NCBI RefSeq assembly: GCF_026151205.1
Contig: NC_087075.1
Coordinates: forward strand, 3,014,359-3,074,358
Direction: 5' to 3'
Length of the DNA stretch: 60,000 nt
From: Bolinopsis microptera
Taxonomy: Eukaryota > Ctenophora > Tentaculata > Lobata > Bolinopsidae
Both the position numbers and the translations under genes were made by a program. A model generated the notes under the pieces. The model saw only the letters and a program-made list of their open reading frames with translations, was not told the origin of the DNA and ran no database searches. Positions within the stretch are counted from its first letter, which is position 1, and each line of letters starts with the position of its first letter. This document shows, one piece after another, positions 891-52,170 of the stretch.

Positions 891-3800
891 CTTAGCATGA
901 TAAGCCAGTGTCCCCATAAAAGCATCTTCAACCAGAAAAACAGGTTGGACACCAGAGTAGTGGACATCTAGAAATTTCTGAAATTATTGGGTTATGTTAG
1001 AGTTGTAACATTATAATTATGTTGTAATTAATAATTATAAAGTTATGTTAGAGTTGTAGGTCACAAAATCCATAGTTGGCAGTTTGGTCTATGGTGCAAT
1101 TGTGGAGAGACAGGGCGGGTGTCAGTACATTACATCGGGCGAAGTACGAATTCACATTTACAAGTTATAGTCCTAAATTATTAAATCAAAGTTCTAAACA
1201 AGGGATAGTTTTAAAAAAACAACGCCCAAGTCTAATCTTTCCCTAAAACAAAAACTAAAAATTAAAAACTTCATTGCAAATTCCGCCAATATCTCTTGTC
1301 ATAACTCAAAATACGGAGATAATGCAGGTCAAAGATATTATTCAAATAAAGATTTCTTTTACACAAATCATGCACAATCAGCGAGAATAGATTGCTTTGG
1401 GGTCTTCCTCTTCTCCCTGGTAAGTCCAGTGTATTGATGGCAAAAATGAGGGAAGAAAACGCTGGTCCGTCAATAGGACCCCGCAAAACATGTCCTAACA
1501 TTCTCCACCGACTACGGGCCACTTTTTCTGACAATGGTTCAGCATTGCAGCGTTTATACAAGTTTTTGTTGGAGATGACTCCTGGGTACTTTATATTCAA
1601 AATAGTGCGAAGATGTCTGCGGTGAACAACATCTAGTTTTTCAAGGATTATTTTGGGGACGGCCCAACAGGATGAGTTGTACATAAGAACCGATACGACT
1701 AAAGCATTATACAGTATTAGACGTTTGTTTAGGGGCAGTTTATCACTCCAGGCCTTCTTGTAATTGTTAAAGGCAGCATATCCCAGGTTTATGCGACGCT
1801 GAATATCAGCTTTGCTACACAAGACGGACCCTAGAGTGATACTTTTCCTCCATGCTTCATTCCCCGACACTAATTTTCCATCACTGTCGACTTCACCCGT
1901 ACTAGCTAAATAAACATGAGTGAAGTCCGTTTTGTCTTCATTGACAAAGAGGTTCCATTTCTCGAGTATAGCTGTTGCCTGGGGCAAAATAGCTCTCAAG
2001 TTGTCTTCCTCTTCATCATTGAAGTCAACATCATCAGCATATTCAGTGTCAAGTGGAAGGCCAGCAATAGTAATCGGGGGGATCGGCCTATCTAAACTGA
2101 TTGTTATAGTCCATCTAAGTTCATTCAAAGCACCAGCCAAGACAAGGGTGAACAGACAGCCGGATAGACAGTCACCTTGGAAAGCTCCAAGGAGACTTAA
2201 AAACTCAGCTGAAAGAACTCCATTTACCTTCACCCGTAGCTTTGTGTTGGACAACAACAACCGGACAATCCTCAGCTCATCCTCAGTACAGCCACACAGT
2301 TTCAGGAGTTCAAGAATCGTAGTGCGTTTGATCGTGTCAAACGCACTAGACATATCAATGCCCATGCGATGATACTCCCATTTCTTCCTTTGGACAACTG
2401 ACAGTAGAACTCGCTGACACCAAACAATATCAGCACAAGAACGAGCGCGTTTGTATGCACACTGCCATGGACCAGTGAAGGCGTTCACTTTTTCTTCTAT
2501 CCTTTTAAGAGTAGCCATAGACAGAATTTTTCTGGCTGCATTGGACAAGGTGAGTGGACGTAAATTCTTCAGAGGACCAATAGGTTTTTTTGGCTTCTGT
2601 AAGGGTGTTATAGTAGCCTCACCAATGGAAATGGGGAAAGTATGTGTCTCGAAACAACTGTTTATGATTCCAGCATAATGTTCATGGACTGTACTATTAG
2701 AGTACTTAATTAGCTCGTTGGGTATTCCATCGGGACCATTTGCCCTCCCATTTTTCAAGCTAGAGGTGGCTGCATGTATTTCAACTCCAGTAAAAGGTAC
2801 ATTGAGAGCACGTGGTAGACCCTCAAAAGGCTCGAGAGGTTGCTCATTGCGAGTCAGCTGTTTTTCGAGATAGTCTCTAACAACAGAAGCTTTCATGTCG
2901 TCAGATGCAATCAAACAGCCATTTTCATCATGAACACCAATCGAGTTATTAGGTGGTTTACTTTTCTGAAGATGTCTTACTGCTTCAAACATTTTCCTTG
3001 AATCGTTTGTGTTAGTAATATCACTATAGGTCTGATCAGCTTGAGCAGACCTCACTTCAACTAATCTTTTCTGGATACTATTAGTGAGGTGGTTGATGGA
3101 TGACCTCAATGTAGTTCGATCAAGAGATTGATTATTGTTAAGTAGCTGTCGGAGATCGTGACGCTTTTCAACAAGCTCTTTGAGAGTGTCATCACTGCTG
3201 TGATGTTTCAAGCGAGCTTTAGGTTTTGGGTCGATGGAAACATTGGCAGCATCACGAATATGAGACATAAGATTTTGAAGGTCGGCATTTGGATCGTTGC
3301 TGGTCACAAAATTTGAGAACTTGCCTTCAAGGGCCAAGTGATATTTATGTTGCATATCTTTGTTGCTTACAAGTTCTGATATATTATAAGAAGGAACACG
3401 ACGTTGTTTAGGTTTGAAACAAAGATGAATGTTGCTGAAATTGATGCGAGCAATGACAAGTCTATGATCTGAAAATGTTTTAGTACCAGCATAAGTTCTT
3501 GATTGAGTCAAAAGACACTTAGATCTATTTCGGCATAGTATGTAATCTATTTGAGAGTATACAGGCAGTGTCTTCTTACTGTACCGACCAGCCGACCAAT
3601 CCTTCCGCCAACCAGTAAATGATGTAACACGTCTGCTAGGTTGTATAAAACTAGTGTTCACAGCAAACAGATTATTTTCTGAGATAAAATCCAGTAATCT
3701 AGAACCATTTTCGTTCCTTATTCCCATTCCGTATTTCCCCATATATCTACCAAAACCCTGTTCAATATCAGAAGGGGATAATTTACCCAGTTTTGAATTA

Positions 3801-6800
3801 AAGTCACCCAGAAATTGCAACTCCACATTAGAGGGTACATTCTTGGCCTCTCTTAGCTGCCCATAAAAGTTATCCTAAATAGTCCTAAATAGTTAATAAT
3901 AATAGTTAATAGTTCTATGTTTACAGTATGCACTGAAGGGGTATCCTAGGAAGTTTCTTGAACTTTTAACAGGTACACCTCCTCATTTAACCCTCAATTA
4001 AGTTTCCTATCTTTCGGCTGAGTCGACCGAGGAGATCGATTTTACACGATTTTTTACACGATTAGAAAATTTATTTGTTATACTGGAATAATAACAATTT
4101 TAAAATATAAAATAAATCACTTCCCTCTGAAGTAGAACAGATGATGGGAGAGCTTCAAACATGGCGATGGAGGGAAGCGGTGTCTCACCGCTGGGAGGTA
4201 AATTAATACCCGTATCGCGATGGTAAAATTTTATGATATGAGATCTCAAGTAAAAAATAACACAAAAAATAAAAAGTGAATGTTGTCAGTGTAGTGAAAT
4301 CGGAGGCAACATTAATAAAGACGTATACACTTAAACCGTTACAATTATAGTCCCTATCTTGTTTTAAATACTCACAATAAAATACACACAAAAAAACACA
4401 CAAACGTCCCCAAAACATTAACTTCAATTTATATTTCCCTAGTTGAAATTAACTTATTTTATGAAATTGATACATTCGAGAAGATATCGTGATTACATGG
4501 TAGCCATCCATGATCCCCATTTAGCCCTAGGTTTTGTATATGAAGCAAATGGTTCTTAAATCTCTTTTTAAATAGTGAAATTGACAAAATATGATACGGT
4601 ACATCATGATCAAGGAGATAATTTAAAATTTTGGATGCATTAAAAACAAAATTACTATTCTTGGTCTTAGACATTGAGAATTTAGGATCGCATAGATCCA
4701 ATGGATCCTTAGCTACTCCCTAAAGCCGTGTGATATATTATCCGGTAAAAGGAGGTTCCTGTAGCACCGTGGTGTGGTTTACGTATTTAACAATATCACA
4801 ACTTGTTAAACAACAAAATAACAATATCACGCTTCAGCGAGGAAACATTTGATGTTTGCACTGTGTATTATATGTAATACTGTTAACGAAATACTTGGTG
4901 AAACCTTACTCAAGTTCCTCTGTCAATTCGACCATGTTATATATAATAATATATATATATAATAATGCATAATTTGCATATTTGTTATAACTTTATATCA
5001 AACAGGATCTTGTAAGATATCTTCTTAGTTTTATTTGCACAGACAGATCTTAATCTGTAAGTGCTTTCTACAACAGACTTATAAAGAATGACATTGCTAG
5101 TAACCTACATTAGCTGCGCCAGCATTACTTTTCTACATAACGTATTATAATACATTATACGTTAATGTTAACAACTATCCAACTTCTTACACATTTCCCG
5201 CTGCTACAAAATGTAAAAGTGCAGTGTAGACTGTAGTACACAGTTGTACGTTAAGGACCAGTAAAAGTAGTGTTGCAGTACAGTGTCCTACATGTCCTAC
5301 ATGTTCCCTGTGCATTGTAGTAAAAGTAGTGTTGCAGTACAATGTCCTACATGTTCTACATATCCTACATGTTCTACAATCTACATGTCCTACTGTTCTA
5401 TTCCCTGTGCATTGTAGTAAAAGTAGTGTTGTAGGCTACACTTACTCTCAATCAGTACAGTGTTCTATGTGGTGAGTGTAATACTACGTGGTGGGGAGGG
5501 ACTGCACTTTAACACTGTGGATATACGTGTAAAAGTTCGGGGTAGTAACATGGGACTAGGTGAGGTGAAGTGGTGAGGGAATTTCTGAGGCATTTTTAGG
5601 AGGGGTGTTTTAAGATGTTATACTGGGAAACAAGACTTGCGGTAGTGCAATGTGGCTAATGGGCAATTCCACCGTGACGGACACCACGATTTTGCTGTTT
5701 TTTAAAGTTCAAACGAATGTTATACTCGAGATGTTGTTTATTTATCAGCTCCAACTGTTTATTAGTCCACATTTAACCTTGCTACAGGTTGTGTGAAAAT
5801 TTCAGACCCCTACCATTATTACTTTCTGAGATAGCACCCCTGTGACGGACGTGACGTAAATATGACACTTTTTTTGGGTGTCTACTCAGATGGTACCCAA
5901 ATTTATCTCAAAAAGTTATCTATTGTATCTAATTTGGAATTACAATGATAGAAGAAGGTTTAGGGATTTCTGAGATGCCATTTTCTTGGAGATTGCTCAA
6001 TTTTTGTTTGCGTTGCGCCATTTTCAAATTGTGACAGACGTGACTGTGACGGACACACGTTTTTTTTCAATTTTTCCAAAACTTCCACTTGACACTTTTA
6101 TCTTGTTCAGTGACATCTACTCTGTATTCATGCCAATTTTTAGGCCTCAAATACCCCCAAGAGGTCTGCAATAGCCAAAATCGTCCATTTTGGGCATACG
6201 CTAGGGTATCAGTCTGGGGGCATCAATTATTTCTCTACTTGAACAAATTTACAACTCTGGTAAAACATTCATCACTGTTCAACGCATCATACTGTTGAGA
6301 CCATCTCCTAAAAGTTTCATTACTTTAGTGTTTAAAATGTGGAAGATATTAAATTTTTACTTCAAAAATATGCGAAAATAGGGTTAAGTCCATTTTTTGT
6401 GCCTTTTACCTTTGAAAAAGTTGTAAGCAAATAAAATGGCAATAACTCAGTAAATTTAATTATTGAATTGCATATGATGTTATTTGATAGTCTAGTCAAC
6501 ATAGTCAACACAATCCAACCTTATTTGACTTCTATTTGTCTTGGTTTTAGTCAAAATAATGGAAATATGGATAAAAACGGCTAAAAGTGAGCCGTATGCC
6601 CATATATGGGCATATACAAAAGTATACATAACTCGGTCATTTTCTGTCCAATTTTTGATTTGACGACATAGTTTTGTTGAGGACGGCCTCAGCTTTAAGA
6701 AAAATGCCTTTAAAGTTTGTTTAAAGATTTTTTGGAGCATTTTCAAAAAAATGTGACGGACGCGACAAGTTGGGACCCCCCTTACAAAAATTTTTTCTTA

Positions 6801-12517: not shown

Positions 12518-13101
12518 CCATATAATAGGTCCATAAACCTTCCCTGAGAAAAGGCAGTAGGTCCATTTGTACAGCCTTCTCTGAGGGAACTTTTTCCGTG
12601 AGTGAACTTTTTCCCTGAGAAAAGGCAGTAAGTCCAGATTTATTTGCAGTTTTTATAGTTTTTGGCCTATAACTTCCACAGTTTTAGTTATATCGAAATA
12701 ATTTGTATGTGGTCGTAATCAGCTCAGCAAGCAAAAAATGTTGGTACTAATAATTCAAAATTTAAAGAAATATTATTTTCAAAATTTTTGAACCTGAACA
12801 CAAGGGTCCCCCCTTGTGTGAATTATTGAAACATTTTTTGAAAAATTTGTTGCTTTGAATATTGTTCAAATATTTTTTTCCAAATTAATGCATCTGACCG
12901 AGCTGAATACGATGCTGTAAAAATTATTCCAAAATATTCAATATTTAAGAAGTTATAGGCATTTTGAGCGAGAAATTATCCATTTTTCATCAATATTACA
13001 CACTTGCAATGCACAGGAGGCCCACATAAAGTAATCTCAATAAAAATGTACTGTCAAACAATAGTATTTCTCTGGAACCAGTAGAATCATTTGCTCAGTT
13101 T

Positions 13102-14817
13102 ATGTCTAATTCGGTATCTGACTCCATATACCTGGAAGAAACCAATGAAGAAGAAATTATAGAGGTGATCAGAGATTTTCAAAATGGTAAGGTGAGTGAC
13201 ATACCTATAGTTGTTGTAAAAAAACCGGCAAAGCTCATTGCTGGTACCTTGGCTAGGCTTTACAACACATGTATACAAAGTGGTACATTCCCAAGTATTT
13301 TTAAAACTGGTAAAGTTATTCCTATTTACAAGAAAGACAATAAGGAATGCATTGAAAATTATCGGCCTGTATCAATATTACCTTTATTTGGAAAGATCTT
13401 CGAGAAGGTCATTTATAAACGCCTCTATAATTTCTTCACATCTAAAGGTGTACTAACAGACTCACAGTTTGGATTTAGAAAAGGCCATTCTACCACCCAT
13501 GCTCTACACAAATCTATAGACTCCGTTACTAAGTCTCTGGCAAGCAATAAACATGTCCTAGGGATATTCATTGACTTGAGCAAAGCCTTCGACACCCTTG
13601 ATCACGATATTCTTTTATGCAAATTAAATTCCTACGGTATTAGGGGCACAGCACTTACCTTACTAAAAAGCTATTTGACAAACAGAAAGCAGTATGTTAT
13701 GTATAACGATGTACCATCAGAAACAATGAACGTGAAATTTGGAGTACCACAAGGGTCAATTCTAGGGCCGTTACTCTTCCTATTGTATATGAACGATATA
13801 GTAAACTGCTTTTCAGACAGTGAGGTGAAATTTGTACTTTATGCTGATGACACTAATATCTTCATATCAGGACCATCTAGAGAAGCAACATACAAAAAAG
13901 CCAACTTAGTACTTAAACATGTCTCGATTTACATGAAATGTAATCTACTTCATATCAACATGTCCAAATGCTGCTACATACATTTTAAACCTGCCTCTGA
14001 ATATGATGACACCTGTGCACGGACTAGACCATTTGCTATCCTGCTAGATGAATCTAGATCAATATTCATCAATGGTAAGGTTATTACTAAAGTCAAGGAT
14101 ACCAAATTCTTAGGTGTTGTTATAGATAGTAAGCTAAACTGGATTGCCCACATGCACTACATCCGTAAAAAACTGCGATATATGACTGGTGCAATCTGCA
14201 GAATTCGGCACTCGATACCTTCTGAACTATATTTGAAAATATATAATGCTCTTTTTGAATCACATCTCAGTTATGGTATAAGTGTTTGGGGTGTTGTCCT
14301 CAAAGAACGGTCCAATGATAGTCTTTTCATCACACAGAAGCACTGTATAAGGATCCTTTTTGGCGACCTTGACTCATATTTAGATAAACAATCAACATGT
14401 GCACGTACTAGACCATACGGTATGCAAAAACTAGACCGTAAACACTTTGAAAAGGAGCATACAAAACCCATTTTTAATAGATTAAAAATTCTTACGGCTC
14501 AAAACTTGGACAAATATCACTGTATTTTAGAATTCTCTAAGATTATCAAGTACCACTGCCCATACTCCCTTTATGAGGCTATCAACATTTCAAACCGTGC
14601 AACGAGTCTAATGGTTATTCTCCTAAATAAATCAAATACCTTTTTGTTTAATGCAGCCAAGCTTTGGAACGCTGTTCATAAAAAAATTTTAACTTCAAGC
14701 AATTGCTTAGAAACGTCCATTAGCTTGATAAAACTGAGAACCAAAGCACTATTAATACAAGCACAGGCAGCTGACTTAAAAGATACTTGGACTCCAAACA
14801 ATTTTAAATTGCAGTAA
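13102..14817 (+). mobile_element. Non-LTR reverse transcriptase ORF (CR1/jockey-like), endonuclease missing
   Basis: A 571-codon uninterrupted frame encodes a reverse transcriptase. It has ENYRPVSILPLFGKIFEK, SQFGFRKGHSTTHAL, IFIDLSKAFDTLDHD, KFGVPQGSILGPLLFLLYMN and the catalytic YADD box (VLYADDTNIF), then KDTKFLGVVID and a C-terminal LFNAAKLWNAV segment. The frame stays open upstream to about 13025 without a clear start, and no endonuclease is present, so the copy is 5'-truncated. Two short Cys/Arg-rich segments, CARTRPFA and CARTRPYG, interrupt otherwise familiar regions and are almost identical in DNA. The sequence after the stop to about 15.1 kb is AT-rich 3' untranslated sequence. Confidence 0.85.
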
Positions 14818-18960: not shown

Positions 18961-20248
18961 GGCCTATGGTTCGCTTCTTTCACGTATGCATGATCCCGAA
19001 ATAAAAAGACCGCGGTGCATAGGGAGGGCACGCCTGTGCCTGGTAAGCTAGCAGTAAGATAACTAGTCGACTTACCTATTCGCGCACCTGCATTTGCAAC
19101 CTGTGCGCGGCAGGCAGCGTTGAGACCCACAGCGTGGGTTTTGGGGCAACAAGCGCCATAACACGAACAAAAAGAAACGAATTATTTTAACTACAATTGA
19201 CAATATCAAAGAAAGATGTTGTACATCCAGCACCATACTGAAGTAATCAAGTAACTGTAATAATACAAAATGATGACTAAGTCATGGGGGTTTAATCATA
19301 AATGAACCCTCATCGGCTAAATAAACCCACATCGGCTCAGCGTGTACAGAAACTATAGTCACTTTTCCCGTTTTAGCTTCATGCTATTTTATAAGTTATC
19401 TTCTCATACTTGATGAGTAGTGAAATTTAGTGTCTAAGCATTAAGAACAAAGAACAAAGAACAAAGAAGCAGTTTAAAATATCTTCGACTGCTGGAATAA
19501 ACAACTATCCAATCATATGACAAGGTTGAAGGTATAATTCGTGATATATCGTCAGAAGATTTTATAAATTGGTACTTTTTATGTATTGTAATTTAATAGC
19601 TGAAGTATATGAGCAAACGGTAGGACTAAAAGTTAAACATTTAATATCCCTAACAATCTAAATAAATCCGCTTAAATCTGATTTGCCATTATCAAAGTAA
19701 CAGTTCACACTCACAGTTCATTTAAGCAATATTAATAATAATTTAAGAGTTAAAAATATCAATACTTTGTAATATAATAAAATGATATTTCCTAGAGCCG
19801 GATCAGTATTTTACTTTTCAAGAAGCTTGCAGTTATTTACGGCCAACATAAACATGGAACAATGATTTCTGGGCCCATAAGATTAATATAGGCCTTTCTC
19901 TTTCCAAAATGTTCTTAAATGCCTAAGCACGACTAGTTAATCATTTTGGCAAAGTCAATAAAGACAGGATAAAATACTGAGTTAAATTGGTAACTCCAGT
20001 TATAAAATAGAGCCAACATATAATGCCACCGTAAAACTGTTAAAAATAAGTTTAGAAAACACTAAATAAGTCTCTCATGTATGAGAATAAATCGTCCAGG
20101 AAGGTTTGTTATCTACCCCAACTCAGTTTGAAGTGTTCCGTATATATAATCAAAGTTAAACTTCGTCGAAGGTTCATGAACACTGGAATTGGTGACATCA
20201 GGTGTTATTATGATGACGTCACGTGACATTTTGATGACGTCACAACTC

Positions 20249-23200
20249 TTATAACCAAGGATACCATGCTGGGTCCAGTCTGCACAGATTCTCGGGGGTT
20301 GTTGTCAAACTTATAATGGAGGGTAACTTGCTTTCTGCTTTGTCAAAGTTCGCTGCCGTCTGTAGGCGTGACATTATCTGGTTTACTGCCGACTGGGGAC
20401 GAGAGGGTCAATCTCAAACACAAGGAAAGTTTTATTTGATTTTTAAGTTATTTTTGCTGATCACAGTTAAACAATTTAGTTTTATTTTGAATTCAAAGGA
20501 TATTACACTCCAATCCGTTTAATTTTACCTGAATATCTTCAATCATACTGATGACTCGCGGTTCTGTCATATCTTTGATACTAGCTTGTACTTCGTCTTT
20601 CAATATGGCGGCCAGTATCGCCTCCGTGCCTGAAAAGTACGAGCACTTACAAAACGTAACATTTCTATTCAAATACACAAATAATCCTTATGTTTGAAGG
20701 AAGAAATTGTCATAGCTCAAAAGTCAAAGGTTAACATTTCAATTTCACGAGAAAAAAGACTTATTACTACTACTATTATTATTATTCCGTTATTACTCCG
20801 TTACTATTATTATGATCAGGAGATTAGGACAATTATTCTGAAAACTGGTAGACAAGACTACTAACCTAGTTTAGGGTCGATAAGACACCTTGCGGCAGCT
20901 ATCATGGAGAATACCATCGGACCCGAGAGAGATATTGGACCCATCAGTGTAATCATGTTCGGTGTCAGACGGAACGGAATATGCTGCTCGTGTACAAACT
21001 CTCCTGAGGTAATGAAGTCACGTGAGCTGAGGGAGTGCGACATTACTTGAAAGACATTTTATCTGTTCAGAATACCCCTTCTATTGTTGCAGTCTCCTTC
21101 ACTTACCGGTTTCCTTGCTGATAGGGATATGATAATGTACAGTGGACAAGGTGCCAGTCTCACTCACTTACCAGTTTCCTTGCTGATGGGGATATGATAA
21201 TGTACAGTGGACAAGGTGCCAGTCTCACTCACTTACCGGTTTCCTTGCTGATAGGGATATGATAATGTACAGTGGACAAGGTGCCAGTCTCACTCACTTA
21301 CCAGTTTCCTTGCTGATGGGGATATGATAATGTACAGTGGACAAGGTGCCAGTCTCACTCACTTACCGGTTTCCTTGCTGATAGGGATATGATAATGTAC
21401 AGTGGACAAGGTGCCAGTCTCACTCACTTACCAGTTTCCTTGCTGATGGGGATATGATAATGTACAGTGGACAAGGTGCCAGTCTCACTCACTTACCAGT
21501 TTCCTTGCTGATAGGGATATGATAATGTACAGTGGACCAGGTGCCAGTCTCACTCACTTACCGGTTTCCTTGCTGATGGGGATATGATAATGTACAGTGG
21601 ACAAGGTGCCAGTCTCCTGTGTTATGTAGATGTGTTCAGGTTTGAGACTGCTGAGGAATAGAGCGAACTGGACCAGACAGTCGAGGGCTGTTTGTCGGGT
21701 TATCTGGTGCCGGAAACTCCAGAACATTACCGGGTCTGGGTACGTCTTCTTAGCCCAATCTGGGAGATGTCAACTAATTAGTTAATTAGGTCAACTAATT
21801 GGTTAATTAGGTATACTAATTAGTAAATTAGATCAACTTATTAGTTAATTAGATCAACTAATTAGTTAATTAGGGCAACTAATTGGTTAATTTATTAATA
21901 GGTTAATTGTGTAATGAGCGAATAAGTTTGATGATTCTATTTAGGTCCAATCTCCAGTGAGAGGATAAGATTTGGTGAGAGGATAAGTGCCATGATATCA
22001 TGTGAGAGTGTGTGACGTCACGTGAGAGTGTGTGACGTCACGTGAGAGTGTGTGACGTCACGTGAGAGTTTGTGACGTCACGTGAGATTAGCTTACCTAG
22101 GAGTACAGTGGGAGGAAGAATGTTTGTCTGTATAAAGTGGTATATTTTGTTCAGAGCAATACGGTTTAGCACTGATCCCTCGTTCTGCATTCGACCTGAA
22201 ATAATTAACCAACTAGTTAATTAGCTAATTGGGTTACTAGACAATGAGTTTGTTGGTTCTGCATCCAATCTTGCGGAGGACAGCACGTTACGCAGATTTG
22301 CAAAGTTACCTAACAGTTTACAATACGAGCAATCAATAATATCTTTCCAATTAACCAGTTATCTCTCGATTAACCAATTAGACCCTAAATTACCGAGCTG
22401 TTCGTAATAGTAAGCAATAGGGGCGTCTACCTCCATTTCTGGGGACCTGTTCTTGCAATACCACCTGCATTATATGATTGGTGTTTTAAATAAATAATAA
22501 ACATTAAACAGTCATAAAATATACACTGATTGATCATTTAAATTTTAAGTTTTATTTATAATTCAGAGCATATATTACTTCTTTACTTGTAGTGATATAT
22601 ATTAACCTGTATATTTCCAGAACCGATATGTTGCTGGTGTTGTCCTCTATAAGCCTGGACCCGGGCGCTGAAGCTACTACTTTAGGCACACTCCTGAGAT
22701 TAATCAGTTAATTAATTAATTAATCAATTATTTAGAATTTCGATCAATTTATACTGGAGGTATAAATTGATCGAAATCAACCCTTAGTTTTATACTCACC
22801 ATTGTAAATTCCTGCGACAGGACTCTTTTCTCTGGAGTAGGGACTTGTTGAACATTCTTAACAGTTGTAAGAACCTGAAATATAAAGACAAGTTGTAAGA
22901 AACTGAAATATAAAGACAAGTTGTAAGAACCTGAAATATAAAGACAAGTTGTAAGAACCTGAAATATAAAGATAAATCAATTGGTTGTACTCAGTTTGGA
23001 ACTGAGATTTATAAGTAAACTTGTAACAAGACAATACAATATTCATATAAAAGCTGCACAACCATTAAGTCTAAGTTCTAAGTGATAAGGAGTAAAGTAA
23101 TTTTACAAATTTCTAACCTCTCTTCAGATCTGGCCAGTTTGACGTGAGATGAGGTGTTAACCATCAGATAAGGGTATACTTTACCGTTACTCCCACTGTT

Positions 23201-24024
23201 AACACAATATATGGGTTAATAAAGAGTTTGAAATGGTTTAACACAACATCTAACGTTAAGCCACAAAATGTGCACTCTTTTCGAACGACCGGATATATAT
23301 ATATACCGGTATTATTTAATGTGGGGCGATCGCGAATTAAGATATCACACGAACTAAAAATAAACAAATTTCTAAATCAGTTCACACAATTTAAGAAAAA
23401 TTCCATTAGTTAAAATGTATATTCATATACCGAATAAAGAGGCGCCTAGCAGTGAGGCTGTGTTTTCTGATCGTCTCAATCTTAGGTAGGAATCTAGCTA
23501 TTTTCACATAGTGAGCTTTTGGGTTCAGGAACTCTCCGATAAGGTAGACCTCTGAGGAGTGTTTAACATAGTTAAGATAAGGTAGCCCTCTGAGGAGTGT
23601 TTAACATAGTTAAGATAAGGTAGACCTCTGAGAAGTGTTTAACATGGTTAAGATAAGGTAGACCTCTGAGGAGTGTTTAACATAGTTAAGATAAGGTAGA
23701 CCTCTGAGGAGTGTTTAAAATAGTTAAGATAAGGTAGACCTTATCGTGAGAAGAGATATCTATATTAGAGATATCTATATTCTATGGCGAAATTAAATTT
23801 AATTAAAATTAAACGAAAGTGAAACTAAAGTGAAACTAAAGTGAAACTAAAGTGAAACTAAAGTGAAACTAAAGTGAAACCAAAGTGAAACTAAAGTGAA
23901 ACTAACCAGCGCTGGAACTACAGAATTTAGACAAGTAGGAGCAGCGTTCCTCCATATAGTTCTTACTATTGTTGCTCTGCGTCTTATCCAACATCTTAAC
24001 CCAGCATTTCAGTGTCTTTAATAC
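20249..24024 (-). CDS. TRRAP: TRRAP/Tra1-type PIKK pseudokinase, last 11 exons
   Basis: C-terminal 409 residues of the scaffold subunit that brings SAGA and NuA4/TIP60 acetyltransferase complexes to activators in the nucleus. Exons: 23907-24024, 23431-23551, 23118-23195, 22800-22874, 22607-22693, 22394-22464, 22097-22195, 21562-21759, 20866-21003, 20529-20629, 20249-20392; every junction keeps frame. Diagnostic segments are KIARFLPKIETIRKHS, NGKVYPYLM, SRLIEDNTSNISVLEIYR, FWSFRHQITRQTALDCLVQF, HIPFRLTPNM (residues 290-299) and the FATC end NLCRLDPAWYPWL before TAA. No catalytic HxD or DFG loop is seen, as expected for TRRAP. Three splice sites lie inside tandem arrays and a fourth abuts one. 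The first exon abuts GCC2_GCC3-family intron sequence, so this may be only a 3' fragment; no upstream TRRAP exon was found. Confidence 0.9.
21096..21620 (-). repeat. 65-bp x 8 tandem array spanning a TRRAP 5' splice site
   Basis: Eight copies with exact 65-base spacing (first bases of the donor word at 21101, 21166, 21231, 21296, 21361, 21426, 21491 and 21556). Each contains the last coding bases of exon 21562-21759, the donor GTAAGT and 10 intron bases. Copies mostly alternate between two variants (ACCG..CTATC and ACTG..CCATC), so many were added as 130-base pairs. Only the copy at 21562 is joined to the exon body. Confidence 0.95.
21768..21910. repeat. AACTAATTAGTTAATTAG tandem repeat in TRRAP intron
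   Basis: About six imperfect copies of a 21-22-base AT palindromic unit, beginning a few bases upstream (in transcript sense) of the acceptor of exon 21562-21759. Confidence 0.8.
22007..22087. repeat. 18-bp x 4-5 repeat carrying TGACGTCACGTG
   Basis: The unit GTGTGACGTCACGTGAGA repeats with 18-base spacing. Each copy holds a perfect cAMP-response-element palindrome TGACGTCA overlapping a CACGTG E-box. It ends 10 bases from the donor of exon 22097-22195. Another TGACGTCACGTG lies near 20214, just past the TRRAP stop. Confidence 0.8.
22864..22975 (-). repeat. 28-bp x 4 tandem array spanning a TRRAP 3' splice site
   Basis: Copies of TTTATATTTCAG followed by GTTCTTACAA repeat every 28 bases, with copy starts at 22864, 22892, 22920 and 22948. 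The acceptor at 22874 is the one continuous with the exon; the others offer acceptors 28, 56 and 84 bases upstream, two of which would shift the frame. Confidence 0.9.
23538..23745 (-). repeat. 38-bp tandem array spanning a TRRAP 3' splice site
   Basis: Five to six copies spaced exactly 38 bases (GATAAGGTAGACC at 23538, 23576, 23614, 23652, 23690 and 23728). In transcript sense each copy reads ACACTCCTCAG then AGGTCTACCTTATC, which is the acceptor plus the first coding bases of exon 23431-23551. One copy has CTTCTCAG. Confidence 0.9.
23819..23905 (-). repeat. 11-bp x 8 array abutting a TRRAP 5' splice site
   Basis: GTGAAACTAAA repeats with 11-base spacing from 23819 to 23896 and runs into the donor GTTAGT of exon 23907-24024. 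The donor TTAGTTTCAC is itself the first repeat unit. Confidence 0.9.
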
Positions 24025-24118
24025 CTGCCTCCCGACTAACCCTTACCATATCTTTGCCCATCTATTATATATAATAAAAATTATCATCTCCGCACGGTTC
24101 ACTTTAAACAATTCTTAC

Positions 24119-24512
24119 CACACACAGTTCTCCCCCTGAGTTTCGTCCTGACCAAGTCACAAGTTGTAACACAACCTGCTCCTTCGAACTGATCGTGTTA
24201 TCAGGACATTCTTCACAGGTGTTAATGGTCGCTGTTCTTGATCTTCCCATCTGGACATGGCTCTGCAGAATTAGGAAATCGTTAAGCAACAATTTTTGAA
24301 CTACCTTAATTTATAGAGTTATTGTGAGGAAGAATTTTTATTCTATCAAGCACAGATAATTCAAATTTAAAAACATAAGAATATAATTAAATCAATGCTT
24401 TAAAGTTATCTTAACCACAGGCTGTTTTGTCATAGTTTGGGAGACAATCCGCGTCACATTGTCTACAGCTAGACATATCATCATTCCGATATGACCATTC
24501 TCCACACGCTTC
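24119..24512 (-). pseudogene. Decayed GCC2_GCC3 exon pair
   Basis: 24119-24262 matches the 144-base B exon of the 40-60 kb genes (CEECPDNTISS is still readable) but is frameshifted. 24416-24512 matches the 96-base A exon (YRND.MSSC, PNYDKTACG) with one extra base and a changed donor. The intron sequence between and beyond also matches that family, down to about 24031 next to the TRRAP exon. Confidence 0.8.
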
Positions 24513-40384: not shown

Positions 40385-43300
40385 CTGTAAGATTGTATTA
40401 TTACATCTCATAATATTCACATTTTTTATTTCTTTTTTATTTTTTGGGGGGTTCTGTTTCAATTTTTTGATTTTGACACCACTCGGGGGTCCAAATTGCA
40501 GGACCTAAAGTTATTATTCCTTGACCAATTTTTTATTCCGTCATACTGGAGTCTGGACCAGCCATTCCATTGTTTTTTTTCTGAGCATGTATTCTCTTGC
40601 CCTCAAAAAATTGAAGAACTACAAAAGTCTTGGGATTGATGATATCTCTAATGAGCAGTTTCTAGTAGGGGATCACCCTGCGTATACTCAAGATATAATT
40701 TTTTCCGTAGGCAATTCTCTAGCTTAAGTTTAAAATATTTAAAAATGGGTCTACTTACCACATCTAGGTACATCACAAAAAGTCAACGAAATTATGGCAC
40801 TCAACAACATAGTTCATGAACTAGTCCCCGCCAACATGACAAACTTGTTCCAGCCTCTAGATATTACGGTAAATCGTGTTTCCAAGGACATTGTCCGACG
40901 TTGTTATAGTTCATATTACTCGGGGGCGGTCATGAAACAGTGCTAGGAAAGCTCCACGTGATGTTAAGGTTAACCTAAGTTGTCTAAGATAAAACCACTT
41001 CACGCCGAATGGCTTGTAAAAGTTAACACTGAAATGCAGGACCGGGGTAGTTTGATAAAAAAGGTTTCCATAAAGCTAGAAATCACTGATGCTTTAAGCA
41101 TGGACTATTTCATGCACGAAAACCCATTTGATGAAGATGATATGTGATATTAGACACTGATCATGTACACATATTTTAACATTTTTACTGCTCAATGACT
41201 GCTTTTCTTACTTACTGTATAAAAAATGGATTTAAAAATCATTTGCTGAAATTTAAAAAACGTCAAAAAAATTGAAAAAATTCGGATTTTTGATGGTTTT
41301 GAATGCCTTCGAGCGTTCATATTAATGTCCGTTCACAATTATGTCCGTTCCGTTCATGTAATGTCCGTCCAAATAAGGTCCGATAAGGTATGCTTCAGTT
41401 AGGGATTGAGTAAGGATTAGGGTTTCGAATAGTCATTCAGGGCCACCTAGAGAACGTGTTAAAAAAGGTCACGTGACAGTCAAGTGTAGAGTGATTAATC
41501 ATCATCCCGTCCATAACAACCAAAGTATTTGATTTTTTCGAATAAATCACCTCGTTTTGGTCGGAATACCTAAAAAGTGATTCCATGACGCTTGTTTCAA
41601 TGTAAAAAAGGAACATTAAATTATTATGACATAGACCCTGTCAGAACTCCAAAAATTTACTCGGCGGGTTTTATTTTGACGGGTAGAAATAATGGCGTGT
41701 AAAAATTTTAGAAAAACCGCCAAATTTAACACGTTATAAAGTTATAATTAAACGAACTAAGGTACTTCAGACTTCAGTGCATGTTTTATGCTACACTGTT
41801 CAATATGAGCCGAAAATATTTTTTCGGTTTCGAAGTCCGCACCTACCCTTTAGAGGTACGTATCGAGAATGACTTGAACAGAAAATTTTCTCAGTCGAAA
41901 TCTTTCAGAGTTTTTCTGGAAACCACTTTTGTTCATGTTTCATGCTACCCTGATCATTATGAGCCGAAAATAGTCAGTACCTACATTCGAAAAATTGTGT
42001 ATCAAATGGTCTGCTTCGAAAAAATATTTATGGCTCATAATGATCAAGGTAACCTGAAACGTAAACAAAAGCTGTTTCCAAGATAACTTTGTAAATTTGT
42101 TGACTTAGAAAATGTTCGGTCCGAGTCATCTCGCTTTTTTGTTAAGTTATCCTTTAAGTTATCCTTTTATGGTGATGCTATGGTTATTTAGCATGTTTAC
42201 TGTTTCAATACCTGGATGTATACACTCGGGTTCATTAAAATCGAAAGTAAATTCCGTTCCTGAGATGCAGGTCACCTCACTGTTCCCTTTATTGATAGCT
42301 CCAGATTCTAAGCATGTAACCTCCACCACAGTTCCTGGAACTACTGGGAACTGTGTCGTGGTTCTGATCGTAGTTCTCCACTCAGCCTTTAGTCCCGTGC
42401 AGCTCACTGCAGATATATCATATTGAATCACGTTGACCTGATTAATTTGGTTGCGCGATAATTACAACAATAATTACAACCGCTATTTTAACAGTTCTAT
42501 CCCACGATTTTGTTTCCTTTCCCAATCCTAACCCTTTCAAGCAACCAGATCTAACATAACTATACCATTGCTTGCTTGGGGTCCGAGTCTCAAATACTGT
42601 GTAACAACAGTATAAGCTTCCAAGTTATCTTACCACAGGCAGTTTTGTTAGCGTTTGGTTTCCATCCAGCGTCACATGTCTCACAGCTTGTCATAGCATC
42701 ATTCCGATATGTTCCTTCTCCACACGGCTCTGGAATTATAACGTTATAACTGGCAAATCGTAGTGGAAGATAAGAAAATCCTTATTATATATAAACAGTT
42801 CAGATGTTTTACAATAACATTGTTTAAAAAATATTTGTCAAATTAAATATCCACATTCCACATATTCCACGGTTTGTCAAGGAAATTATTGTTACCCAGA
42901 CTCTTACTATAAGCCCTTACGGTTCTTGTCTTTTCGTACCACAAATATGTCTTCTTGATTCTTAGCCCTATCTGGCGCCTTATCCTTATGCCGTCTTAAC
43001 CCTTACCATATCGTTGCCCATCTATATAGTTATTATCATCTCAGCCCGGTTCTTGTTAACGGCACTATCCGTCGCGGAGTAGAGTCCGCGGCGGAGCCGC
43101 CGGACTCCTTACTGGGCCGCGCTCAGCCTGTCATTCCGCCTAATCTCTATTCAATCTTTAATGTTGTTTACCAACATTAAAGCCTGGGGTCCTCAGGTAA
43201 CCGGACTCCGAGCGGACTCCGGCGGTGCTCCGCCAAAATGTATTTACACTGGACTCGAGTACATTTTGGCGGACTCCGAGCGGAGCCGAGCGGACTCCGA

Positions 43301-46300
43301 GCGGACTTTAAAGTCCGCCGCGGACTCCGAGCGGCTCCGCGGCGGCTCGGCGGAGTGTCCGCCGCGGACTAAGCCACTAGGCGGACTCCGGTCCGCCGCG
43401 GACTCCGGCGGAGTGCTTGGCGGACTCCGCCGGACCTCTCCGCCAAACTTGAATCCGGCGGAGTCTGGCGGAGCTTGGCGGAGTCCGCCAGCTCGGCGGA
43501 CTCCGCTCGGAGTCCGCCGGACTCCAACAGAGTCCACTGACTTCCGACCTCCGACTTCCGACCCTCGGCTAAATTTGTCACGTGACATACAACATAGAAT
43601 TTTGCAATATTGTGGTCAGGTGAAAAGGTCGCTAGTGATAAACCTTAACCATTACCCTCACAATGTCAATAGTGTACAACTCTAGTCCTAACTTTGACCC
43701 TATAATGTATAAACGTTGACCCTAACCCTCCACCAAACCGTCCGCAGCGAAATATCAATGTCATTGACTGGTCACGTGACCAAAACAATTTTTGTCATAT
43801 TATCTCATATAGGGAAGCGTTTTTAGTTTTACCCTACACGTTGCATGTGGCGTCATTCGGCCGGATCCCAGCAAGCAAAAATACGTCGACCATCACAGGA
43901 CGACGCCAGCCAGCACTCTCTACGCTCGTCGAGCTCCGATCGTCCTGTGACGAAGTAAGGACAAAGCCTGAGGTCCTCAGGTAACATCGACCACCGATTG
44001 AAAATTCAAAGATTTTTTGACATAAAGGTCAAATGTAAAACTAAAATCTTGATGTTGATTGATTGACGACGTCAATTTTTGAGCACAGCGCGAGCGCATG
44101 CGGAAAAGGACCGCGTAGCTAGTCCGAGCGGACTCCGAGCGGACTTCAAATCAAATCAAATCAAATAAAAAATAATGTCATAAACATCATCACAGATTAT
44201 CGAAAACTCGTCCTTTTTCCTTCACTTCAAAATTTAACTTATATTATAGTTACATATATTATTACCTCGGAGCGGTAATTGGAACCCCTAGGTTCAAGGA
44301 GGAATATCATGTCAAAAAGAAAGTAGAGAATGGAGAAATGGGTAAAGGATATAGAAAAACTTTTTACTTTTGCTGCCGATGAGCCACAGGCGTTAGCTGC
44401 ATACACTAAAGGAGTAAATTGCAGATGGCAATACCTTCAAAGAACTGTTCCCAACATAGCAGAACTATTCAGACCACTAGAAAGTGTTTTAAGACACAAA
44501 CTGATACCAGCACTCGTGGGCAGATAAGTATAATGAATAAATTGTGTAGAAATTAATAAATGTGACTGTGAGTGTGACATTGTGACATGTACATTTGCAT
44601 TTGCGTAGGGCCGGCTCGATCCACGTGCGCGGCGCCCCCGCGCCCATTATGCTTACATCTCCAATTTCAATTGCAGTGTGGTGCTTGCGTGGCGCGGCGG
44701 GTCGGGTACTCATGTACTTGATTATTGAGAGTACCCCATCTTATGAACGATAGATGAACTAACAATATATTTTGAAGTTTTTTTTGAAGTATATTATATG
44801 TATTGATTATTCTGTGGCAAATAAAATTCTCTTTTTCTTAAATTCTCTTTTTCTTAATTCTTGTTCATTGAAATATTACCGCCAGCGAGGAGCCGCAGCT
44901 GCGACTGCAAGCCGTGTTACCCATTTCCCTGTACTGTATTGTGATCAGCATGAGTTTAATCAAAGTAATGTGTATCACTCGCTTCACTCGATCCGAAATT
45001 AAAGTATATAATCCTACAACGCCAAGCTAGTAATAGAGTTTTATGAAAGCACTCTGGCCAAGTCAGTGGATTCTTTTTACCTAATTTTAACTCATCCCAT
45101 TAAGGAACGCGCGCTGGATAAAAAGAAACCTAGCCAGAGTGGAAGTCGGCGCCCTCATTAAATTTTTGGAGAAAATCGCTCGCCAAAATTTGTTGGACCA
45201 GGACGATGTCCTAGCCTGGCAGCTCATTGCGCGTCGCAACGAGCTTTGTTGTTCGTCGACGTGCGACGAGCAACGAGAAAAATTGTGTGGCAGGTCGGGT
45301 TGCACATCTTAACGGGTGATACGCGTATAAATTTCGATCGCTGACGTACAGCGAGCAGCACAGCTGCGAGTGGCGTCAGCTAGTAGGATTTCATCCTACA
45401 AGGCACATCGCGTTTACCTAGCTAACCAGGTCATTTCCGCCTCCGGCGGTCGCGCGCTACTGCAAGCTTACCTGAGGACCCCAGGCTTTAATGTTGTTAA
45501 TAGAGATTAGGCGGAATGACAGGCTGAGCGCGGCCCAGTAACTGCAAGCGAGAGGGCTATAGTTAGACTTAGAGCAACACATCGCGCCACAAGCCAAATA
45601 TTTATCAACATCTTGACTAGCTACGCGGTCCTTTTCCGCATGCGCTCGCGCTGTGCTCAAAAATTGACGTCGCGTCGTCAATCAATTAACATCAAGATTT
45701 TAGTTTTACATTTGACCTTTATGTCAAAAATCTCTGAATTTTCAATTGGTGGTCTATGTTACCTGAGGACCTCAGGCTTCGTCCTTACTTCGTCACAGGA
45801 CGATCGGAGCTCGACGAGCGTAGAAAGTGCTGGCGTCGTCCTGTGATGGTCGACGTATTTTTGCTTGCTGGGATCCGGCCGAATGACGCCACATGCAACG
45901 TGTAGGGTAAAACTAAAAACGCTTCCCTATATGAGATAATATGACAAAAATTGTTTTGGTCACGTGACCAGTCAATGACATTGATATTTCGCTGCGGACG
46001 GTTTGGTGGAGGGTTAGGGTCAACGTTTATACATTATAGGGTCAAAGTTAGGACTAGAGTTGTACACTATTGACATTGTGAGGGTAATGGTTAAGGTTTA
46101 TCACTAGCGACCTTTTCATCTGACCACAATATCGCAAAATGCTATTGGCTATGTTGTATGTCACGTGACAAATTTAGCCGAGGGTCGGAAGTCGGAGGTC
46201 GGAAGTCAGTGGACTCTGTTGGAGTCCGGCGGACTCCGAGCGGAGTCCAAGCTCCGCCGGACTCCGCCGGATTCAAGTCTGGCGGAGAGGTCCGGCGGAG

Positions 46301-49300
46301 TCCGCCAAGCACTCCGCCGGAGTCCGCGGCGGACCGGAGTCCGCCTAGTGGCTTAGTCCGCGGCGGACACTCCGCCGAGCCGCCGCGGAGCCGCTCGGAG
46401 TCCGCGGCGGACTTTAAAGTCCGCTCGGAGTCCGCTCGGCTCCGCTCGGAGTCCGCCAAAATGTACTCGAGTCCAGTGTAAATACATTTTGGCGGAGCAC
46501 CGCCGGAGTCCGCTCGGAGTCCGCTCGGAGTCCGGCGGCTCCGCCGCGGACTCTACTCCGCGACGGATAGTGCCTTGTTAACAATTCTTACCACATTTTG
46601 TTCTCCCTGAGCTTCGTTCCTGGCCAAGTTCACAAGCTGTACACAAGGCTGCTCCTTCTGAACTGATTGTGTTATCAGGACATTCTTTACACGTCGTGTT
46701 CATCTTAATGCTCTTGTAGCTTCCAGCTGGACATGGCTCTGAAGAATTAGGAAATCTTTAAGCAGAAATTCGTTTGAACTACCTTTTTAAGAGGTCATTG
46801 TGAGTACCAATATCCTCGTTTTTCATTCTATGGCACAGTTAACTAAAATTTAAAACATAACAATAATATTAAATATAAGCTTTAAAGTTATCTTACCACA
46901 GGCTGTTTTGTCAGAGTTTGGTGTCAATCCAGCGTCACATGTCTCACAGCTTGTCATAGCATCATTCCGATATGCTCCTTCTCCGCACGGCTCTGGAATT
47001 ATAACGTTATAACTGGCAAATCGTAATGGAATATAAGAAAATCGTTATTATATAAGTACAGTTCAGATGTTTTACAATAACATTATTTAAACAATATGTG
47101 ACAAATTAAATATCCACATATTCCACGGTTTTTCGAAGAAATTATTGCCACCCAGACTCTTACGCCCTTACGGTTGTTGTCTTTTCGTACCACAAATTTG
47201 CCTCCTTGATTTTTAGCCCTATCTGGCGCCTTATATTATAGATATAAATCTCAGCTCGGTTCTTGTTAACAATTCTTACCACATTTTGTTCTCCCTGAGT
47301 TTTGTTCCTTTCCAAGTTCACAAGTTGTACACAAGGCTGCTCCTTCTGAACTGATCGTGTTGTCAGGACATTCTTCACATGTGTTCATCTTAATGCTCTT
47401 GTAGAATCCAGCTGGACATGGCTCTGAAGAATTAGGAAATCTTTAAGCAGCAATTCGTTTGAACTACCTTATTAAGAAGTTATTTCGAGTACCAATATCC
47501 TCGGTTTTCATTCTTTAGCACAGTTAATTCAAATTTAAAACATAACAATAATATTAAATATAAGCTTAAGTTATCTTACCACAGGCTGTTTTGTCAGAGT
47601 TTGGTGTCAATCCAGCGTCACATGTCTCACAGCTTGTCATAGCATCATTCCGATATTTTCCTTCTCCACACGGCTCTGGGATTATAACGTTATAACTGGC
47701 AAATCGTAATGGAATATAAGAAAATCGTTATTATATAAGTACAGTTCAGATGTTTTACAATAATATTAGATAAACAATATGTGACAAATTAAATATCCAC
47801 ATATTCCACAGTTTTTCGAGGAAATTATTGCAACCCAGACTCTTACGCCCTTACGGTTCTTGTCTTTTCGTACCACAAATTTGCCTTCTTGATTCTTAGC
47901 CCTATCTGGCGCCTTATCCTTATCCCGTCTTAACCCCTACCATATCTTTACCCATCTATATAGATATAATCATCTTAGCTCGGTCCTTGTTAACAATTCT
48001 TACCACATTCTGTTCTCCCTGAGTTTCGTTCCTGGCCAAGTTCACAAGTTGTACACAAGGCTGCTCCTTCTGAACTGATCGTGTTATCAAGACATTCTTC
48101 ACATGTGTTCATGTCAATGTTCTTGTAGCTTCCAGCTGGACACTCAGCTGATAAATAAGGAAATAGTAAGAGAAAAATGAGCTACAAATGTTAAAAATGT
48201 GAATAATGCAGAATACCATGAATTACTCTCTGGTCTTCAGATAAGAATCCTTACCACACGCAGTTCTCCCTGAGTTTCGTTCCTGGCCAAGTTCACAAGT
48301 TGTACACAAGGCTGCTCCTTCTGAACTGATCATGTTATCAGGACATTCTTCACACGTGTTCATATTAATGTTCTTGTAGCTTCCAGCTGGACACTCAGCT
48401 GATAAATAAGGAAATAGTAAGAGAAAAATGAGCTACAAATGTTGAAAATGTGAATAATGCAGAATACCTACCATGAATTACTCTCTGGTCTTCAGATAAG
48501 AATCCTTACCACATTCTGTTCTCCCTGAGTTTCGTTCCTGGCCAAGTTCACAAGTTGTACACAAGGCTGCTTCTTCTGAACTGATCATGTTATCAGGACA
48601 TTCTTCACATGTGTTCATGTCAATGTTCTTGTAGCTTCCAGCTGGACACTCAGCTGATAAATAAGGAAATAGTAAGAGAAAAATGAGCTACAAATGTTTA
48701 AAAAATTCAATAATGCAGAATACCATGAATTACTCTCTGGTCTTCAGATAAGAATCCTTACCACACGCAGTTCTCCCTGAGTTTCGTTCCTGGCCAAGTT
48801 CACAAGTTGTACACAAGGCTGCTCCTTCTAAACTGATCATGTTATCAGGACATTCTTCACATGTGTTCATGTCAATGTTCTTATAGCTTCCAGCTGGACA
48901 CTCAGCTGATAAATAAGGAAATAGTAAGAGAAAAATGAGCTACAAATGTTAAAAATGTCAATAATGCAGAATACCATGAATTACTCTCTGGTCTTCAGAT
49001 AAGAATCCTTACCACACGCAGTTCTCCCTGAGTTTCGTTCCTGGCCAAGTTCACAAGTTGTACACAAGGCTGCTCCTTCTAAACTGATCATGTTATCAGG
49101 ACATTCTTCACACGTGTTCATATTAATGTTCTTGTAGCTTCCAGCTGGACATGGCTCTGAAGAATTAGAAAATAGTAAGAGAAAAATGAGCTACAAATGT
49201 TAAAAAATTCAATAATGCAGAATATCATGAATTACTCTCTGGTCTTCAGATAAGAATCCTTACCACACGCAGTTCTCCCTGAGTTTCGTTCCTGGCCAAG

Positions 49301-51589: not shown

Positions 51590-52170
51590 GTATAACAAAA
51601 AAATTTCTTAGAAAATAACATAACTTAAAACGAATTGTGCTTAAAGATTTTTTAAATTTTTTTCGGGAGCCATGTCCAGCGGGGAAGCTACAAAAAAATT
51701 TTGGCAGAAACATGTAAATTTTTCCCTGATAACACGACCCGTTTAAAAGGAGAAAGCCTTGTGTACAACTTGTAAAACTTGGCCAGGAACGAAAATCAGG
51801 AGAAAAAAAATTTTTTTGGTGGTAAGAATTGTTAAAAAGGGGGACCGAGCGATTTGGAATTATTATATAGAGGGGAAAAAAGGGAGGGGGGTGGGGTTAA
51901 GACGGGAAAAGGGGTAAGGCCCCAGATGGGGACAAAGAATGGCACTATCCGTCCGGAGTCGAGTCCGCGGCGGAGCCCCCGGGGCCTTTTCCGAGCGGAC
52001 TCGGCGGTGCTCCCAAAATGTATTTCCAGGGACTCGAGAAACATTTTGGCGGACCCCGAGCGGACCCGACCCGGACCCCGAGCGGATTTTAAAAGTCCGC
52101 CGGGGGGGGGGGGGGTTTTTTTGGGGGGGGGGAGGGGCCCTCCGGGGGCGGCCCCGGCGGAGTGTCCGCC
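51590..52170. other. Probable low-quality assembled sequence
   Basis: Compared with clean copies of the same B exon, intron and fold-back end, this stretch has inflated homopolymers (AAAAAAAATTTTTTT, runs of 10-14 G) and lost bases. The errors stop abruptly near 52170, inside the fold-back arm. Frames here should not be trusted. Confidence 0.7.

Follow-up and report, generated by a model that had tools for sequence, protein, structure and literature searches.

Minisatellites that straddle splice junctions in TRRAP and other genes of the ctenophore Bolinopsis microptera overlap junctions about as often as gene geometry predicts

In the genome of the ctenophore Bolinopsis microptera, tandem arrays lie directly across exon-intron junctions of protein-coding genes. 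Three such arrays, with units of 65, 28 and 38 base pairs (bp), are found in a partial copy of TRRAP located in a stretch of 60,000 nucleotides (the window, C4:3014359-3074358, in an assembly of 264.65 Mb and 232 contigs). Arrays that cover junctions recur in the genes sampled here, no more often than geometry predicts. They are probably the result of ordinary minisatellite turnover, which is tolerated at junctions since surplus copies fall inside the intron. The original prediction, made from the window sequence alone, had held that the placement of the arrays on junctions looks non-random and had offered two possible causes, slippage seeded at intron ends or a mechanism that copies junctions. 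Overlap with junctions proved to be at the level of chance in the genes sampled, and the part of this idea that survives is a crowding of intronic arrays at exon edges.

The window copy consists of the last 11 coding exons of TRRAP (409 codons plus a stop) on the minus strand, and it aligns by blastn with C4:3159682-3164973, while the flanks are unrelated on both sides. Although the exons had been correctly assigned to TRRAP, they belong to a partial duplicate of its 3′ end. The complete gene is on the same contig, about 125 kb away, and spans C4:3159.8k to ~3204.9k or beyond, extending onward from the matched segment for at least 45 kb. The window copy is 3.9 kb long, its homology to the parent stops at window position 24028, and it encodes these 409 codons only rather than a full-length TRRAP protein. 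Searched against the Protein Data Bank, selected exons of the parent gene hit human TRRAP chains with E values of 6.3e-119 and 1.2e-98, which identifies the gene as TRRAP/Tra1 (1171 residues were compared in two queries, the first of which includes one wrong-frame peptide, from the exon whose acceptor is in the 28-bp array). The two copies encode the same protein, with 0 of 409 residues differing and codon differences that are all synonymous (11 synonymous, 0 non-synonymous). Substitutions amount to 0.9% in exons and 3.2% in intron sequence outside the arrays (Fisher P = 1.9e-5). Because its frame is intact and its exons are less diverged than the non-array intron, the window copy is not a decaying pseudogene. 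It may either be under constraint or have been recently copied from a divergent allele.

Arrays were called by Tandem Repeats Finder (TRF), and exon edges in the window copy were set by frame and splice signals (Table 1). These analyses bear out the predicted 65-bp array over a donor, the 28-bp and 38-bp arrays over acceptors and the 11-bp array that starts at a donor. The accompanying claim that the units hold only a few coding bases suits the 28-bp and 38-bp arrays, with 12 and 14 exonic bp, but not the 65-bp array, which includes 55 exonic bp and displays eight GTAAGTGA donors spaced 65 bp apart. The list of four arrays was also incomplete, since five more arrays of the same stretch (units of 11, 21, 16, 20 and 15 bp) cross no junction. 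Each junction array contains one end of its intron, and the opposite junction is unique sequence outside the array. Creation of introns by the window-copy arrays is excluded, as their unit holds a single intron end.

The arrays are minisatellites, built of head-to-tail units of 11-65 bp with 95-97% matches in the 65-, 28-, 38- and 11-bp arrays, and these four behave as variable number tandem repeats when the window copy is compared with its parent. Copy number is 8.1 in the window copy and 7.1 in the parent for the 65-bp array, 5.4 and 21.4 for the 38-bp array, 3.9 and 2 for the 28-bp array (the parent counted by eye), and 8.6 and 6.6 for the 11-bp array at the donor. Exon-free arrays have changed as well. 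The 20-bp array has 4.5 copies in the window copy and 9.5 in the parent, and alignment gaps place a 34-bp length difference between the two genes within the 21-bp array. Since the larger exon-free arrays, those of 20 and 11 bp among them, changed just as the junction arrays did, there is no sign of a junction-copying device, and that half of the proposed cause is rejected. Seeding at intron ends is kept partly alive by the crowding at exon edges.

Overlap with junctions was compared with a null in which a single unit stands for each array and is placed uniformly in its gene, positions wholly inside exons being barred. An array was taken to span a junction when its unit includes at least 3 exon and 2 intron bases, and arrays were counted at a period of at least 8 and a TRF score of at least 50, except in the window copy. 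There, 2.02 spanning arrays are expected and 3/9 are observed (P = 0.32), a count that includes two arrays scoring 44 and 46 and in which two exon edges are 1-2 bp off. In the full parent gene, represented by 84 curated exons, 8/45 arrays span a junction against 5.36 expected (P = 0.15). When these are split post hoc, 7/15 arrays with units of at least 25 bp span one, where 3.32 would be expected (P = 0.028). For a blind sample, 20 gene stretches, each 10 kb long, were chosen from dynein, PI3-kinase-like and myosin matches before their repeats were inspected. They yield 8/104 spanning arrays against 9.92 expected (P = 0.81), and units of at least 25 bp in this sample are likewise at expectation (6/27 against 6.08). 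With TRRAP and all 24 sample stretches of 10 kb pooled, 20/175 arrays span a junction where 18.62 are expected, and stricter exon cut-offs give 17/166 against 14.59 and 13/150 against 11.38. The excess over chance that the original prediction had anticipated is thus not seen in this material, which is a sample of genes rather than the whole genome. Short introns underlie this geometric expectation; the median TRRAP intron measures 251 bp, and a 65-bp unit has a chance of about 30% of spanning a junction.

These counts depend on how exons were defined. In TRRAP, exons were curated by hand, with 30 predicted exons dropped or re-edged and predictions above coordinate 48100 excluded; the 84 that were retained comprise 10,362 coding bp, and some true exons are missing. 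Outside TRRAP, gene models came from a simple script trained on TRRAP and were partly checked by homology. This gene finder used a raised intron cost and masked the interiors of arrays, and exons inside arrays of at least 3 copies were dropped from the pooled count. It predicted 446 exons in the 24 sample stretches, of which 319 pass a length of 30 bp and a coding cut-off of 2. The same stretches hold 146 merged arrays, and 130 are counted at cut-off 2; the others either fall beyond the predicted gene span or correspond to two rows in stretch L028 of a 64-bp array of ATM, which is counted through stretch L020. L009 has no countable array, and L028 contributes one array to the 175, which is lost at cut-offs 5 and 8, where too few exons remain. 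No array wholly inside a predicted exon was flagged in TRRAP or in the blind sample, a result that the gene finder itself favours by penalising coding sequence within arrays.

The likely course of events begins with a genome rich in both minisatellites and introns, in which minisatellites would grow and shrink within introns. A short segment would be tandemly duplicated at a nearly random place, and the duplicated segment would then expand or contract through slippage or unequal exchange. An array lying wholly within an exon would be removed by selection. One that straddles a junction would survive, because its outermost copy would still give the correct exon end while the surplus exon pieces and splice sites would become part of the intron.

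Several observations weigh against turnover as the whole account. The null relies on gene models from a simple script that are checked against known structures only in part, and turnover is not universal among arrays, as three short ones (units of 11 bp at 20779, 16 bp at 21880 and 15 bp at 23752, with 2.0-2.7 copies) show no difference in copy number between the window copy and the parent. More pointed is the behaviour of arrays that combine units of at least 25 bp with at least 5 copies, 9/14 of which span junctions against 2.81 expected (P = 0.0003, post hoc); at stricter exon cut-offs the figures are 7/12 against 2.27 and 6/10 against 1.83. This could mean that arrays across junctions gain an advantage after they have formed, if the presence of a splice site in each copy makes large size better tolerated. 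The largest spanning arrays would fit such an effect. In ATM, a 64-bp acceptor array runs to 71 contiguous copies (52.7 in L028 and 18.3 in L020), with another 11 in a detached block; the gene also has a 52-bp donor array of 69 copies. In an SMG1-like gene, a 60-bp acceptor array has 62. The assignment to ATM comes from exon matches to Tel1 and ATM kinases (best E values of 2.4e-33 and 3.9e-33), although the first exon of L028 is weak, its peptide lacking a match (domain score -0.6). Elsewhere, the dynein exon that adjoins a 65-bp array in L010 falls on a match to Pfam AAA_6. The long-unit, high-copy class was, however, noticed after the first two data sets, when 11 of the 14 arrays had been seen; it was recorded as a criterion, and four stretches were then added. 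Among the new independent arrays in these stretches, 1/3 spans a junction against 0.49 expected (the value first computed, 3/5 against 0.73, included two segments of the ATM array that had been counted before). At the strictest exon cut-off, the part of the class outside TRRAP shows 2/6 against 0.84 (P = 0.19). The junction of the 60-bp array is weakly supported, since the homology of the adjacent exon is weak (domain i-Evalue 5.4), and so is that of a 25-bp array in L022. Units of at least 25 bp with fewer than 5 copies show no excess (7/41 against 9.25). A better tolerance of junction-spanning arrays at large size appears decidedly unlikely.

The remaining difficulty for ordinary turnover is that intronic arrays crowd exon edges about 2.5-fold over random placement within 20 bp, in TRRAP and in the sample alike. 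Against 2000 simulations in which each array was placed at random within its own intron (L028 skipped), 16/37 intronic arrays of the parent TRRAP lie within 20 bp of an exon where 6.7 are expected, as do 26/106 in the sample where 10.0 are expected, and 0/2000 placements are as extreme in either case. These numbers would be understandable if arrays were seeded at intron ends, the splice-signal region being a preferred starting point for slippage or duplication that sometimes takes in exon bases. In keeping with this idea, distances peak at 0-10 bp (11/37 against 3.5 in TRRAP and 16/106 against 5.2 in the sample), the peak occurs at donors (7 in TRRAP and 9 in the sample) and acceptors (4 and 7) alike, and the excess within 10 and 20 bp persists whether or not masking is applied and at either of the two exon cut-offs. 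Junction overlap is not raised, however, and crowding could arise after array formation, perhaps through loss of unique intron DNA between the array and the splice signal. In addition, missed exons make predicted introns too long and so lower the expected number of arrays near exons. In sample introns shorter than 1 kb, where missed exons matter least, the excess shrinks to 15/45 within 20 bp against 8.2 expected, and the 21-30 bp bin holds 1 array against 3.7. The strict exon cut-off leaves a weak excess at distances up to 5 bp (5/92 against 1.9, with 66/2000 simulations as extreme). Seeding is a rather unlikely explanation of the junction arrays. As for an artefact, in which the arrays or the second TRRAP copy would stem from misassembly or an unmerged haplotype, the two copies do lie near each other on one contig and are 98.1% alike over their longest shared array-free block of 1395 bp. 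The window copy is nonetheless truncated on both sides between unrelated flanks, exon and intron divergence differ as they would between real sequences, and the same kind of array recurs in several other sampled genes, all of which makes this explanation very improbable.

Site scoring indicates that the spare array copies keep predicted splice sites of a strength similar to that of the outermost one. All 6 spare donors of the 65-bp array in the parent gene score at least as high as the outermost donor, as do 57 of the 65 spare donors found in the 52-bp array of ATM. Acceptors reach the outermost score less often (4/19 in a 71-bp array of TRRAP, 1/13 in the 64-bp array in L020, 0/5 in a 43-bp array and 0/1 in a 41-bp array); in these four arrays the outermost acceptor is slightly the best, and the medians of the spare ones lie within ~0.8 of its score. 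The consequences for the protein are predictable in the window copy. Whichever of the 7 spare donors of the 65-bp array were used there, translation would stop after 284 codons; each of the 4 spare copies of the 38-bp array that keep AG would lead to a stop after 57-60 codons, and spare acceptors 2 and 3 of the 28-bp array would do so after 143 and 129 codons, respectively. The farthest spare acceptor of the 28-bp array would instead add 28 codons in frame with no stop. The expectation that distal copies would often break the frame therefore stands, apart from this last acceptor, with 13 of the 14 tested spare copies with an intact GT or AG predicted to truncate the protein. Judged by the reading frame, it is the outermost splice sites that the cell presumably uses.

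Intron gain by tandem duplication of proto-splice sites is an idea also associated with Rogers (1989), and a 2007 study by Zhuo et al. reportedly deals, as its title has it, with human introns from tandem arrays. Among the titles listed by searches of the open-access literature, none concerned splice-site arrays in ctenophores, and a search on ctenophore repeats yielded no paper. Tandem duplication of exonic proto-splice sites has been described as giving rise to new introns (Lehmann et al., 2010; PMC2891723). The arrays described here resemble that process in that extra splice sites come to lie beside an exon and a duplicated part of the exon turns intronic. They differ from it in that one intron end lies in the repeat and the other is unique, whereas intron gain by tandem duplication draws both ends from the duplicated segment, a pattern that none of the window-copy arrays displays. 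A closer relative is found among human minisatellites at exon-intron boundaries of segmental duplications, whose number differs between gene copies and which have units of about 30 bp on average and change intron structure (De Grassi and Ciccarelli, 2009; PMC2812944). Like these, the present arrays lie in a segmental duplication, vary between the duplicated copies and in three cases fall on exon-intron boundaries, with 12-55 exonic bp inside the array. In the human case the changes are supported by transcripts, and some of the repeats made new introns. A further difference from that account lies in copy number, which here climbs to 60-70, and in recurrence, as arrays of this type occur in TRRAP, ATM, SMG1-like and dynein genes within a single animal genome. 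As far as these sources go, the arrays described here add another example to the human boundary-minisatellite kind, with unusually many copies.

Table 1. Features of the partial TRRAP copy, in window positions
Feature	Position	Strand	Evidence
Partial segmental copy of TRRAP 3′ end	20157..24028	-	blastn to C4:3159682-3164973; intact frame
65-bp array, 8.1 copies, spans donor after exon ending 21562	21090..21616	-	TRF, donor scores, exon edges
21-bp intronic array, no junction	21769..21892	-	TRF; alignment gaps
20-bp intronic array, 4.5 copies, no junction	21998..22087	-	TRF
28-bp array, 3.9 copies, spans acceptor 22874/22875; 12 exon bp	22863..22972	-	TRF; exon edges
38-bp array, 5.4 copies, spans acceptor 23551/23552; 14 exon bp	23538..23741	-	TRF; exon edges
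11-bp array, 8.6 copies, begins at donor of exon ending 23907	23811..23905	-	TRF
TRRAP exon, 198 bp, donor inside 65-bp array	21562..21759	-	Frame and splice signals; human TRRAP alignment
TRRAP exon, 75 bp, acceptor inside 28-bp array	22800..22874	-	Frame and splice signals
TRRAP exon, 121 bp, acceptor inside 38-bp array	23431..23551	-	Frame and splice signals; human TRRAP alignment
TRRAP exon, 118 bp, first of partial copy	23907..24024	-	Parent homology ends 4 bp past acceptor side

Other features of the locus and its surroundings were noticed along the way. The TRRAP copy starts no more than 4 bp from an exon acceptor and about 90 bp downstream of a donor-like end on the same strand, which belongs to a degraded cysteine-rich exon (window 24029-24119). 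A fused transcript of that exon and the TRRAP copy is conceivable, but the pyrimidine tract of the acceptor is poor. The degraded sequence at ~24110-24250, just past the breakpoint of the copy, is a relative of a 251-bp unit repeated 5.6 times at window 47991-49402 (TRF), which on the minus strand appears by eye to hold a coding-like stretch rich in cysteine, with a donor-like GTAAGG after it. In the parent gene, about 700 bp of the intron at C4:3162178-3162880 (L001:5379-6081), including 26 consecutive G close to the start, is missing from the window copy, a difference that reflects either an insertion or a deletion. The motif CACGTGAC occurs 23 times in the window, on both strands, against 1.0 expected from dinucleotide shuffles. 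Some of these occurrences sit in one 20-bp array and in repeated G+C-rich elements, and CACGTGAC or TGACGTCA forms the core of several intronic arrays in TRRAP and other genes. An 8-bp unit, GTTACTTG, is repeated ~240 times within a predicted myosin intron (L026:3151-5041).

Candidate mobile and dispersed sequences are also present. Open frames of 867 and 595 amino acids at window 1274-3874 (-) and 13030-14814 (+) resemble non-LTR reverse transcriptases by eye. G+C-rich repeats at 43083-43682 (+), 46145-46552 (-), 51836-52489 (+) and 54022-54573 (-) have similar translations in both orientations and probably represent one mobile-element family. Elsewhere in the assembly, dynein heavy-chain matches at C3:8954112 and C1:6100405 lie in uninterrupted frames of 3357 and 3703 amino acids, many other dynein matches proceeding exon by exon, and these two are possibly retrogenes. 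Three near-equal PI3/PI4-kinase matches (C12:2853945, 13155351 and 15198816), each in a frame of 464 amino acids, suggest dispersed recent copies.

It is possible, if rather improbable, that exon borders are real minisatellite hot spots, with arrays that begin at or against splice signals and reach dozens of copies, and that splice-site choice within them is positional. If this is so, pre-mRNAs such as those of TRRAP and ATM would carry tens of similarly strong copies of a splice site, the reading frame being kept by the outermost, and the splicing machinery would need to select a site by its position rather than its strength. The close packing of arrays next to exons is relevant to changes of intron length in compact genomes. 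Ultimately, these arrays amount to natural competition experiments in splice-site choice, in which the same donor or acceptor is presented from 2 to ~70 times in a row at similar strength, and RNA reads across the array introns would reveal what governs the choice of copy, be it distance from the exon, transcription order or exon definition.

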